Positions 54,336 through 59,103 of a DNA stretch of 64,000 nt are shown one piece after another (the stretch's first letter is position 1; the number at the start of each line of letters is the position of its first letter). The notes below the pieces were generated by a model. It was not told the origin of the DNA. It saw only the letters and a list, made by a program, of their open reading frames with translations, and searched no databases. A program made the position numbers and the translations under genes. The DNA is from Streptomyces humicola. GTDB taxonomy: Bacteria > Actinomycetota > Actinomycetes > Streptomycetales > Streptomycetaceae. The DNA lies in NCBI RefSeq assembly GCF_024436035.1, contig NZ_JANFNG010000030.1, positions 1-64,000 of the forward strand. The letters run 5' to 3'.

Positions 54336-55013
54336 ATGAGACAGGTCGCGAAGAAGGGCCTGATGACGATGGTCGCGACGAGCGGCGTGCTCGCCGTGAC
54401 CAGCGGACTGGCGTACGCCGACGCTGGTGCGCAGGGGGTAGCATCCGACTCGCCGGGCGTTTTGTCCGGGAATCAGGTGCAGATCCCGGTGCACGTGCCG
54501 GTGAACGCGTGCGGCAACACGGTGGATGTCATCGGGGCGCTCAACCCCACCTTCGGCAACCACTGTGTCAACTCCTCCAGCCACCGCAAGGGCAGCGCCC
54601 GGAGCGAGGCCGACGCCGAGGGCGTGGCGAAGGGATCGCCGGGCGTCGGGTCTGGCAACAACGTGCAGGTTCCGGTGCATGTGCCGGTGAACGCGTGCGG
54701 CAACTCGGTGGATGTGATCGGGGCGCTCAACCCCGCCTTCGGCGACGACTGCCAGAACGAGTCGTCCCCCGGGTACACGCCTCGCTCCCACACGCCGCTC
54801 CGCCACATCCCGCGTCGGCACCACCGGCCGTCGGAGACCGTGCCGTGGATCCCGCCGTACCACCATGACCACCATGTGTGGCACGGCGGCCCGGAGCTGG
54901 CGCACACCGGTACGGACATGCTCGGCCTGGCCGCCATCCCGGCCAGCGCGGGTCTGCTCATCGGCGGCGTCCTGCTCTACCGCCGGGGCCGTCGCAGCGC
55001 TGCTCGCGGCTGA
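54336..55013 (+). CDS. Long chaplin with sortase signal
   Basis: This 225-residue precursor of a wall-anchored chaplin (ChpA/B/C class) has a signal peptide, two chaplin domains (QVQIPVHVPVNACGNTVDVI and NVQVPVHVPVNACGNSVDVI), a linker, and a sorting signal LAHTG followed by a membrane segment and RRGRRS tail for class E sortase. By position beside chpH it corresponds to chpC of S. coelicolor. The linker holds an unusual His/Pro/Trp-rich stretch (RHIPRRHHRP and PPYHHDHHVWHGG). The ATG at 54336 follows AAGGCAGGGA. Confidence 0.88.
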   Translation: MRQVAKKGLMTMVATSGVLAVTSGLAYADAGAQGVASDSPGVLSGNQVQIPVHVPVNACGNTVDVIGALNPTFGNHCVNSSSHRKGSARSEADAEGVAKGSPGVGSGNNVQVPVHVPVNACGNSVDVIGALNPAFGDDCQNESSPGYTPRSHTPLRHIPRRHHRPSETVPWIPPYHHDHHVWHGGPELAHTGTDMLGLAAIPASAGLLIGGVLLYRRGRRSAARG

Positions 55014-55326: not shown

Positions 55327-55995
55327 ATGTCTGATGTCGTACAGCCCCCCGTGGCCGAGGTGCGAGCGGCCGCCGAGGCGGTCAAAGCAGCGATCGACCG
55401 CCACCTTGCTGCGATCGAGAACCGCACGGGCGAGGACGACCCCGCCGTCTACGCCGCTTTCGACGCCCTCGCCTCGGCGGCCGAGGCGTACGACGAGCTG
55501 CTCTACGACGCCTATGACGAGGTGACGCCCTTCGAGGTGCCCGCAGGCGACTCGCTTCCCGCCTACGGAGGCCCCGCGGAACCGGGTGCGATCAGCGTGC
55601 TGATCCGCCGCGACTACGCCGTCGCCGAGCCGCAGCGGCTGATCGCCCAGGCCGCGCGGGTCGCCGACGAGGTCACCGGAGCCGGTACGGGCGTCGGCGC
55701 CGCGATCGGAGCCCTGTTCGGCGAATACGAGCCGGACGAAATCGCCTCCCGTCACAAGGAGTTCGGTCTCGAGGAAGGCGACTCCACGTTGTGGGTGCAG
55801 GCTGCCGATCCCGCCGAGCCGGGCGAGTGGCTCGCCGCCCCCTTCGACCAGGCGGACCCCGAACTCACCGTCTGCCGCTTCGACATCAGCGCCGTCTACG
55901 ACGACGAGGACGAGGAAGGCGAAGCGGACGACGACGAGGGCGGTGGGGACAGCGATGCCGACGACGTGACCGGCCGGATCAGCCGGGAGAGCTGA
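55327..55995 (+). CDS. Acidic hypothetical protein
   Basis: This 222-residue cytoplasmic protein starts with a helical region (AEVRAAAEAVKAAIDRHLAA), has a globular middle (PGAISVLIRRDYAVAEPQR) and ends in a strongly acidic tail with about 20 Asp/Glu residues in 30 (YDDEDEEGEADDDEGG). It is a conserved streptomycete protein whose function I do not recognise. It converges on the RecD-like gene with 21 bases between. Confidence 0.75.
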   Translation: MSDVVQPPVAEVRAAAEAVKAAIDRHLAAIENRTGEDDPAVYAAFDALASAAEAYDELLYDAYDEVTPFEVPAGDSLPAYGGPAEPGAISVLIRRDYAVAEPQRLIAQAARVADEVTGAGTGVGAAIGALFGEYEPDEIASRHKEFGLEEGDSTLWVQAADPAEPGEWLAAPFDQADPELTVCRFDISAVYDDEDEEGEADDDEGGGDSDADDVTGRISRES

Positions 55996-56016: not shown

Positions 56017-57999
56017 TCATATCCCTTCGGCCTGATCCCGCAGGATCGTCCGCAGGCGGGTCGTGCGCTCCTTGGCCGGCACTTCGGCCACGACGCCAGG
56101 CAGCGCCTGCTCCACGCCGTGCACGACCGACAGATGACGCTCGCCGCGGCCGAATGCGGTGTAGACCCAACTGCGGGTCAGGCCAGCGGCGGCGTCCCCC
56201 GGCAGCACCACGACCACGGCGCGCCACCGCCTGCCGACGGCCTGCTGGGCCGTCACCGCCCACCCGTGCCGCACGGCCGTGGCCACTCGGTCACGGGGCA
56301 CCAGCACCGCGGCGCCCTCGCACTCCAGGCGCAGCCCCCCGGCCTCGGCGGAGACCACGACGCCGGGCACGGCCCGGCCGGCCGCCGCTTCGTACACCAC
56401 CCGGTCGCCGGGGTCGAAGCCCGCGAACCGGCCAGGGCCGGGATTGAGACGTTCCTTCAACACCGCGTTGAGCGACCGCGTACCGGCGGCGCCGCCGTGG
56501 CCCGCGGTGATCACCTGGGTCTGCGCGGCGGGCACGCCGATCGCCCTCGGGATCGAGTCCGCGACCAGCTGCACGGTGCGGTGCACCGCTTCGCCCGCAT
56601 CATGCACGGGCACGATCACCACTTCCCTGCCCGGCGCCTCCACCTGCGTCAACTCGCCGACGCCGATCCCGGAGACCAGCTCCCCGATGGGGCCGGGATC
56701 CGGCGTACGGGAGGCGACGTGCGGGCACACCTTCGCCGCGACGAGATCGGCGAAGGCCCGTCCCGGTCCGCTCGCCGACCACAGGACGCCCGGGTCACCG
56801 CTGAGGACCAGCCGTGCGCCGTCCGGTACCGATTCCACGAGCGTGGCCGCCGACTCCACGTCGAGCTGCGGTGCGTCCAGCACGGCGAGCACGTCGAGCG
56901 CCAGCGTCCCGTCCTCGCTGCGACCCGGCCCCTGGGCGCCCGACAGCAGCCCGTCGACGGTGACGGCCGACTCCGCCGCATCCTCCCCGAGGTGCTGACC
57001 AAGCCGTCGCCTGCCGTCCTCGGTATGTGCGGCCGCGACGGCCCGCAGCCCCGCCGCGCGGGCAGCGGCCACCAGCGCCGCCGGCTCGGCGCGTGCGGCC
57101 TCACCGCCGGAGTGGGTCACCAGAGCGCTTCCTGCGACAGCCCGGACGAGCTCGGCCGCGGACGGCGACGGCGCGGCGGAGGCGGCTGCCTCCCAAGCCT
57201 CCGCCTCCGCGCCCTCCGCGCCCTCCGCGGCCTCGAAGGTGTTGAGCAGGCGGCCGAGGCCGTCCGCGAGGCTCTCCTCGGCGAGGGAGTACCGGTCCAG
57301 ACCGAGCAGAAGCGTGACCGGCGCCTCGTCGTCCCCGGCGCCCGGTGCGGCCCCCGGCGTCTCCTGCGCGTCGTGAAAGACCATCACCTGGCCGTTCTCG
57401 ACGGCCGTTCGCAGCGCGGCGTCGGCATCGGACACCGACTGCTTCTCCAGAGCCGCCCGCAGCACCGGCCACTCCAGCGCCGTATGGCCCGCATCGGCGG
57501 CCCGCTCCAGCAGCCAGGTGACGAGCGCGCGCCCGCGCCGCTCGTCGTCCGGGCGGCAGGCGGCGCCGAGCAGCGCCCGCGCGAAACCGTCGGCCTGATC
57601 GACCCGGACCCCGGCAAGGGACAGCACCAGCCAGGGATCCTCATGCAGTCGCTCGCCGGCCCGTTCGCCCAGGGCGTCCACGGCAGCCTCGGCGAGCGCC
57701 GGCGGCGCACCGCCGGCGGCGAGTACCTGGCGGGCCGCCTCGACGGGCTCACCCGACAGCTCGGGACCGCGTGTCTGCGTCGGCGGCGGAGCCACCGGCT
57801 CGGCTGGTGCGGCGGCCGGCGTGGGAGCACTCCACTGCGCCGCCGTGCCCTGCGGCTGCTCGCCCGCAGCGCCGCGGCCGCCACCCCGCTCTATCTTCCG
57901 GACCGCCTCGGCGAGGCGGGACAGCTCAACGGACGGCTGCCCATTGGAGCCGGGCGCCTGGCGGGCGCCCCCCTCGTCGGCGGTGCGGTCGGTGCTCAC
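56017..57999 (-). CDS. RecD2-like helicase homologue lacking the Walker A motif
   Basis: The 660-residue protein has the layout of RecD2-type helicases: a helix-hairpin-helix region (about 75-160), a winged region with DADAALRTAVENGQVMVFHD, a first RecA-like domain and a C-terminal second RecA-like domain (WAVTAQQAVGRRWRAVVVVL and SWVYTAFGRGERHLSVVHG). Where the P-loop should be it reads SALVTHSGGEAARAEPAALV, with no GKT. The Walker B region is VLDAPQLDVESAAT rather than a DEAS type. It probably cannot hydrolyse ATP in the normal way and may be a regulatory or DNA-binding relic. The GTG start overlaps the aldo/keto reductase stop. Confidence 0.75.
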   Translation of the reverse strand: MSTDRTADEGGARQAPGSNGQPSVELSRLAEAVRKIERGGGRGAAGEQPQGTAAQWSAPTPAAAPAEPVAPPPTQTRGPELSGEPVEAARQVLAAGGAPPALAEAAVDALGERAGERLHEDPWLVLSLAGVRVDQADGFARALLGAACRPDDERRGRALVTWLLERAADAGHTALEWPVLRAALEKQSVSDADAALRTAVENGQVMVFHDAQETPGAAPGAGDDEAPVTLLLGLDRYSLAEESLADGLGRLLNTFEAAEGAEGAEAEAWEAAASAAPSPSAAELVRAVAGSALVTHSGGEAARAEPAALVAAARAAGLRAVAAAHTEDGRRRLGQHLGEDAAESAVTVDGLLSGAQGPGRSEDGTLALDVLAVLDAPQLDVESAATLVESVPDGARLVLSGDPGVLWSASGPGRAFADLVAAKVCPHVASRTPDPGPIGELVSGIGVGELTQVEAPGREVVIVPVHDAGEAVHRTVQLVADSIPRAIGVPAAQTQVITAGHGGAAGTRSLNAVLKERLNPGPGRFAGFDPGDRVVYEAAAGRAVPGVVVSAEAGGLRLECEGAAVLVPRDRVATAVRHGWAVTAQQAVGRRWRAVVVVLPGDAAAGLTRSWVYTAFGRGERHLSVVHGVEQALPGVVAEVPAKERTTRLRTILRDQAEGI

Positions 58000-58976
58000 A
58001 GCGTGCTCCAGTCGTGGTCGGGATAGCGATGCACCGGCGCCGACACGTCGTCGAGCGCCTGGCAGATCTCACCCGGAAGCGTAAGGGCCTCCACTGACAA
58101 TGCCTGGCTGAGCTGCTGCGCGTTGCGTGTACCGAGGATCGGCGCGGCCACCCCGGGCCGGTCCCGTACCCAGGCGAGAGCGACCTGCAGCGGGGTGACC
58201 GCGAGCCCGTCGGCGGCCGTCGCGACCGCGTCGACGATGAGCCGGGCCGTCTCGTCGAGGTACGGCGCCACAAACGGTGCGAGGTCGTCCGAGGCGCCGC
58301 GTGAGTCCGGAGGGGTGCCGTGCCGGTACTTGCCGGTGAGCACGCCTCGGCCGAGGGGCGACGACGGCAGCAGGCCGACGCCGAGGTCGAGCGCGGCGGG
58401 CAGCACCTCGCGCTCGACCCCGCGCTGCAGCAGCGAGTACTCCATCTGCGTACTGGCCAGCGCGGTGCGGCCGGCGCCCGCGCGCTGCCAGGTGGCGGCC
58501 TTGGCCAGCTGCCAGCCGCAGAAGTTGGAGACGCCGGCGTAGCGGGCGCGTCCCGAGGCGACGGCGATGTCGAGCGCCTGCAGTGTCTCGTCGAGCGGCG
58601 TCCGCGGATCGTAGGCGTGCACCTGCCACAGGTCGACGTGGTCGGTGCCGAGCCGCTGGAGCGAGGCGTCGAGCGCGGAGAGCAGGTGTCCGCGCGAGCC
58701 GTCGAAACGCCGGTCGGGGTCCGGCACGCTGCCGGCCTTGGTCGCGATCACCAGGTCCGAACGCGGCACCAGGCTGTCGAGCAGCCTGCCCAGCAGGTAC
58801 TCCGCCCCGCCGTCCGCGTACACGTCGGCGGTGTCCACCAGCGTTCCGCCGGCCTCCCAGAACGCCTTCAGCAGATCGGCGGCGTCCCGCTCGCCGGTGT
58901 CCCGCCCCCAGGTGAGCGTGCCAAGACCAAGCCGCGAGACGCGCAATCCCGTTCGGCCGACGTGCCGTTGCTCCAT
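57996..58976 (-). CDS. Aldo/keto reductase
   Basis: This NADPH-dependent (alpha/beta)8-barrel oxidoreductase has 326 residues. The catalytic tetrad is visible: Asp and Tyr in VDTADVYADGGAE, Lys in LVIATKAGSVP and His in VDLWQVHAYDPRTP. GLGTLTWGRDTG begins the barrel. The ATG at 58976 gives MEQRHVGRTGL. It is coupled by GTGA to the RecD-like gene and divergent from the LLM oxidoreductase. The substrate is unknown. Confidence 0.9.
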   Translation of the reverse strand: MEQRHVGRTGLRVSRLGLGTLTWGRDTGERDAADLLKAFWEAGGTLVDTADVYADGGAEYLLGRLLDSLVPRSDLVIATKAGSVPDPDRRFDGSRGHLLSALDASLQRLGTDHVDLWQVHAYDPRTPLDETLQALDIAVASGRARYAGVSNFCGWQLAKAATWQRAGAGRTALASTQMEYSLLQRGVEREVLPAALDLGVGLLPSSPLGRGVLTGKYRHGTPPDSRGASDDLAPFVAPYLDETARLIVDAVATAADGLAVTPLQVALAWVRDRPGVAAPILGTRNAQQLSQALSVEALTLPGEICQALDDVSAPVHRYPDHDWSTL

Positions 58977-59103
58977 GTGGGGTGACACTACTGGCCCACG
59001 CGCTGCAGTGCTGCAGTGTGGCGCACTCGACAGCCACGGTTGTGCGTGCGACGCGCTACAGTCCCCGGAGACGACGACGTTACCGATCGGTAAGGGGTGC
59101 GCT

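Follow-up and report, generated by a model that had tools for sequence, protein, structure and literature searches.

A probable RecD2-derived pseudohelicase that has lost its Walker motifs in Streptomycetaceae and related actinomycetes

What keeps a helicase-type gene in place once its product has lost the ATP-binding loop, and is such a loss a local defect or an old, shared state? These questions are raised by a RecD2-type gene of Streptomyces humicola, located in a window of 64,000 nucleotides, which is the whole stretch of DNA that was analysed. The gene and its parts are as follows.

56017..57999, minus strand: gene for a RecD2-type pseudohelicase of 660 aa with a GTG start, open reading frame confirmed
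57751..57999, minus strand: N-terminal tail, residues 1–83, without Pfam match, with a short LxxAVRxIExG motif
57481..57735, minus strand: HHH_RecD2, residues 89–173, retained (Pfam, 3.4e-10)
57082..57117, minus strand: P-loop position, residues 295–306, where THSGGEAARAEP replaces GGPGTGKS
56860..56889, minus strand: Walker B position, residues 371–380, where LAVLDAPQLD replaces VVVDEASMLD
56761..56802, minus strand: motif III remnant SGDPGVLWSASGPG, residues 400–413, with GD and GxG kept and Q lost
56122..56268, minus strand: UvrD_C_2 (2A lobe, motifs V–VI), residues 578–626, weak Pfam match

The order of HHH_RecD2 followed by UvrD_C_2 is that of RecD2, in agreement with the preliminary description of the locus, and the NCBIfam RecD2 model TIGR01448 aligns to residues 92–652 of the window protein. 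The score of 92.4 bits does not reach the curated cut-off of that model (500 bits), UvrD_C_2 is matched with 22.5 bits on the protein (below the cut-off of 27.4) and with 27.6 bits with the neighbours in frame, AAA_19 gives a sub-threshold Pfam match, and neither the first HHH hairpin nor the OB domain of classical RecD2 was detected in the protein. A classical RecD2 is encoded in the same genome (L054; GGPGCGKS and VVDEASM, 845 bits to TIGR01448), and in the alignment of the two proteins the P-loop columns of the window protein read THSGGEAARAEP and its Walker B columns AVLDAPQLD. With HSGGEAARAE at the Walker A position, and LDAPQLD rather than DEASM at Walker B, the protein has neither GxxxxGK[ST] nor DE, and the missing ATP-binding loop and degenerate Walker B first reported for this gene are both borne out. 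We infer from these motifs that the window protein would be unable to bind or hydrolyse ATP. The earlier view that the gene is otherwise well kept was right about coupling, since the stop of the upstream aldo/keto reductase gene (AKR) and the start of the pseudohelicase gene overlap as GTGA at 57996–57999, but not about high codon bias: GC3 is 0.877 as against 0.861–0.927 in five neighbours, which is only the norm of the genome. The LxxAVRxIExG motif, a possible docking peptide, occurs in 15 of the 41 rows examined, all of them from Streptomycetaceae, where it sits in an otherwise variable, Ala/Pro-rich tail (57751–57999 and orthologues).

Matches to the window protein were found in seven named relatives and in 41/41 genomes searched. 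Class-wide searches gave matches in 45/79 genomes at 1e-10 and in 126/196 genomes at 1e-15, counts that include classical RecD2 and other RecD-type proteins. When 107 non-repeated loci of the subfamily were compared, 27 carried both Walker motifs, 78 carried neither, none carried just one of the two, and two were not judgeable (L094, masked, and L124, at a contig end; 80 motif-less loci if both are included). A double loss common to 78 loci goes far beyond what chance would give. This set leaves aside 31 loci, namely 26 repeats and five classical RecD2 genes from genomes that were not picked to represent all families, and L010–L015 may share species with other genomes in it. The gene is present in 25/25 Streptomycetaceae genomes, and all 47 Streptomycetaceae loci lack Walker A as well as Walker B; both motifs are likewise absent from every aligned row of this family (f1 in our numbering of families) and from the rows of families f2 and f3. 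The alignment of orthologues extends the missing P-loop to the relatives within the family. Orthologues with a normal loop, which had been named as the finding that would make the loss a local defect, do exist outside the Streptomycetaceae (27 loci), but the state proved to be clade-wide and the local defect falls away.

The intact members of the subfamily carry GGPGTGKS, DE(A/S/T)SM and TVHRAQGSEW, reach 406–422 bits to TIGR01448 (three tested), and belong to other actinomycete families (f9, f12, f14, f16, f18, f20 and f23). The lost forms differ among themselves at the P-loop: VATAPGIAKT is found in f3 and RHGPG in part of f19, and the shortened lost forms are missing much of the P-loop region. 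The arginine of motif VI is also gone in f3. Genus g19 of that family (L046–L052) lacks, besides this arginine, the 2B/SH3 region that separates motif IV from motif V, but a KT pair is still present in its P-loop remnant.

Phylogenies address how often and in which direction the site changed. In a gene tree of 59 rows from which the motif columns had been removed, all full-length lost rows fall into one clade (SH-aLRT 99), and in a tree of 67 rows that includes the shortened forms and is based on 354 columns outside the Walker A–B region, 42 lost rows form one clade (99/97; 100% of 200 bootstrap trees). In an rpoB tree of 27 genomes, built without the f10 genome G046, which gave no rpoB match, a single branch (97/92) divides genomes with the intact form from those with the lost form, so that one change is needed. 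The outgroup of the gene trees, classical RecD2, has the loop, and the direction is therefore loss; with the nearest relatives also carrying intact motor motifs, the protein descends from an active helicase. Since the gene trees and the rpoB tree need one change each, the ATPase site was lost once, in the ancestor of the Streptomycetaceae and their order, f19 (another large family) and several smaller families, and this placement at the base of a large clade is what makes the loss old and clade-wide. Repeated independent losses are unneeded, with the caution that the lost rows of f4, f8, f10 and f33 are on long branches. By locus, intact and lost forms are orthologues, and the RecD2-like paralogue as such is actinomycete-specific.

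Purifying selection persists on the inactivated gene: dN/dS over residues 84–655 is 0.13–0.23 in nine pairs, which upholds the proposal that the gene is selected without its ATP site. In the Streptomycetaceae the dead loop (residues 296–307) is not drifting, since its mean agreement is 0.92 as compared with 0.75 for the whole protein (30 rows), with H296, G298, A301 and E305 unvaried. The 20 intact rows share 195 invariant columns, of which f1 rows keep 57% on average. Absent from 16/16 f1 rows are the G, K and S of Walker A and the D and E of Walker B, which never vary in the 20 intact rows, and also the Q that precedes the P-loop, the arginine of GRAA, the HR pair that follows GRAA, and the R, Q and E of motif V; residues of motifs Ia and Ib that are invariant in intact forms are lost as well. 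The columns kept in f1 comprise G111, P122, D137, A140, R155 and G171 of the HHH domain, the motif III residues GD and, in the 2A lobe, R609, R618 and H622, R618 being the motif VI arginine (15/16 f1 rows). The names Q-motif, Ia, Ib, V and VI, and the functions that go with them, are those that we take these alignment columns to have.

A pseudohelicase with a selected role is, on these data, very probable. The actinomycete-specific RecD2 paralogue, located beside the AKR gene in most families, lost its ATPase site once, and we propose that the inactive form has since been kept for an ATP-free task for which parts of the HHH domain and of the 2A lobe are needed. The pseudohelicase may be seated on a DNA-repair protein or on DNA that is branched or single-stranded, and would, as a passive adaptor, recruit or position a partner, much like PriA of Deinococcus radiodurans and the vestigial TraI domain. 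The full proposal, a RecD2-derived pseudohelicase kept as an ATP-independent adaptor that is probably bound to nucleic acid, we judge to be evenly balanced, and the step that makes it a nucleic-acid adaptor would stand slightly below that.

An ATP-independent adaptor in repair or restart is favored because of these two precedents. According to PMC4504706, D. radiodurans PriA is likewise a replication and repair helicase whose Walker motifs were lost clade-wide and which was retained; ATPase activity and unwinding are lost, DNA binding is kept, and the protein contacts DnaB. It is a different protein, and one characterized biochemically. The TraI vestigial domain, as described in PMC5422253, has a RecD2-like fold, lacks Walker A and B, and binds single-stranded DNA; in TraI this domain shares its polypeptide with an active helicase, whereas the window protein is stand-alone and chromosomal. 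A survey from 2005 (PMC1193525) describes putative actinobacterial PriA as smaller and very divergent. The open-licence literature yielded no paper on this RecD2-like subfamily.

RecD2 (SF1B, TIGR01448; D. radiodurans structures 3gp8, 3gpl and 3e1s), with which the window protein shares the order HHH–1A–2A with an SH3-like insert, is its best match by both sequence and fold, from which it differs in the absent Walker motifs, the undetected OB (YrrC) domain and the low TIGR01448 score. A separate classical RecD2 is retained in the same genome. An AlphaFold2 model of the window protein, built from eight sequences, has a moderate pLDDT of 63.9, being good at approximately residues 10–130 and 190–330 and poor in the C-terminal third. 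The top Foldseek match is D. radiodurans RecD2 (2.9e-19, with a TM score of only 0.35), and VIA-align superimposes the model on RecD2 with Z 16.9 and an rmsd of 11.1 over 346 aligned residues, and on TraI with Z 13.2 and an rmsd of 6.8 over 234. The TraI residues concerned, 315–801, fall inside the vestigial helicase domain by the boundaries given in PMC5422253.

How the pseudohelicase might hold DNA is less simple in Streptomycetaceae. The net charge of the HHH domain is –4.4 in f1 rows as compared with +0.2 in intact forms, which weakens a simple DNA-clamp reading for this family; the values are +1.1 in f19 and +4.2 in shortened forms, and the net charge of the entire window protein is –27. 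With the motif Ia, Ib and V residues lost, the motor groove may no longer hold single-stranded DNA, and charge and groove residues together would count somewhat against groove binding in the Streptomycetaceae. The acidic charge and the lost groove residues would fit a protein–protein scaffold that works off DNA, together with the coupled AKR or with the convergent gene on its other side, a reading that we hold to be less probable than the adaptor. The two neighboring genes are:

57996..58982, minus strand: aldo/keto reductase (AKR), upstream overlapping gene, assigned by Pfam, start codon uncertain
55327..55995, plus strand: UNK, convergent acidic 222-aa gene without Pfam or NCBIfam match

The AKR gene is the most persistent neighbor, being directly upstream in 77/107 subfamily loci, further off in eight, and absent from the sequence examined in 22; nine of these 22 belong to f20, and there the upstream sequence covers 3.7 kb or more. 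This would speak for the scaffold, but AKR adjoins intact motors too: the gene order LLM–AKR–RecD-like–M20 is common to lost loci and to intact loci of f16, f14 and f9, and the AKR link is therefore older than the loss. In f20 (L089–L093, L114–L116), where AKR is not in the sequence examined at the intact paralogue, a histidine-phosphatase gene lies nearby instead.

A profile search found UNK in 11/34 genomes, all of the lost clade, with 4/4 genomes of f1, 3/3 of f3 and all four sampled genomes of f8, f22 and f30, and in 0/16 intact genomes; where a locus bears both UNK and the lost gene, the two are convergent (55/55 loci, repeats included). Against the scaffold, its presence fits one gain on the tree, it is missing from 6/6 genomes of f19 and from the sole lost genome of f4 searched, it lies 5–17 kb from the lost gene in G005, G020, G026 and G029 and on a different contig in G032, and gene order by itself indicates no contact. 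The link to UNK is only suggestive, because its presence can be one gain, and UNK was set aside as a proven partner, the co-occurrence amounting to one phylogenetic event and the gene not always being adjacent. In shortened lineages, only the N-terminal 70–90 residues of UNK are present. The UNK profile found no relative in the PDB, PADLOC gave no hit for it, and its structure model (pLDDT 42.8) is too poor to use. Beyond UNK, the pseudohelicase locus is bordered at 54336–55013 (plus strand) by a two-domain chaplin (ChpA-C, 3.7e-55) that ends in an LAHTG-type motif, a hydrophobic stretch and a basic tail.

The adaptor reading has also to be weighed against inhibition or regulation of classical RecD2, for example by occupying the DNA of RecD2, which had been put forward as inhibition of the real helicase. 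An intact classical RecD2 above the TIGR01448 cut-off does co-occur with the lost form in 13/13 genomes of the Streptomycetaceae, f2, f3 and f19 (it is also found in 4/4 f20 genomes and in 0/8 other intact genomes). However, none of the nine genomes with f10 or shortened lost forms has one above the cut-off, three of these nine being less than 90% complete and one 6% contaminated. With no detectable target in nine genomes, inhibition of RecD2 is not a role shared by the clade, and as a general role the proposal fails; it could still be a local one, and we consider the inhibitor improbable. The classical RecD2 match is split in two pieces in G009 (C1:3277071–3279258; the pieces are open frames of 501 aa and 488 aa) and in G153 (C3:19764–22415), perhaps by a frameshift or an assembly fault.

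Somewhat less probable again is that nucleotide binding or ATPase activity persists through a non-canonical site. In favor of it, Streptomycetaceae retain R618 and the motif III residues GD, and the sequence that took the place of the P-loop shows conservation of its own; yet the catalytic residues of Walker A and Walker B are gone from every f1 row, f3 is without the motif VI arginine, g19 is also without part of 2B, and the P-loop region is largely deleted in shortened forms. That the gene is a decaying pseudogene, or bears a local or sequencing defect, has in its favor the degenerate motifs and the long branches of distant lost rows, which diverge fast, but is highly improbable and was rejected on the 47 concordant Streptomycetaceae loci, on a loop of one kind throughout the family, and on dN/dS, the frame being open in the Streptomycetaceae loci read apart from one internal TAG (G014). 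A defence system was likewise discarded, as the PADLOC matches of the window protein are weak and of a generic helicase type.

Motor-less helicases that are kept in genomes reveal what cells require of a repair enzyme apart from its unwinding. With intact and dead orthologues, several at one locus, and a single switch placed on the tree, the ATP-free function of a RecD2-type protein could be probed by gene swaps and deletions in the genetically tractable Streptomyces. A further and rather unlikely extension is that the inactivation stands for a switch of machinery: in one large actinomycete clade, a motor of the RecD2 type would have turned into an adaptor for forks or gaps that needs no ATP, and the clade-specific UNK would have joined it later, giving a module for repair or restart that resembles neither RecD2 nor PriA. 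On this extended reading, the dead form would be all that is left of RecD2-type proteins where classical RecD2 is undetectable, and nature would offer a case in which the structural role of RecD2 can be separated from its motor.

A plain 'RecD2' annotation of either form would be misleading, because several families have no classical RecD2 above the cut-off and their best RecD2 match is the intact form. In f16 (L086, L109–L111, L117–L119), the five genomes checked have the intact paralogue as their top RecD2 match, and none of them has a classical RecD2 that reaches the cut-off.
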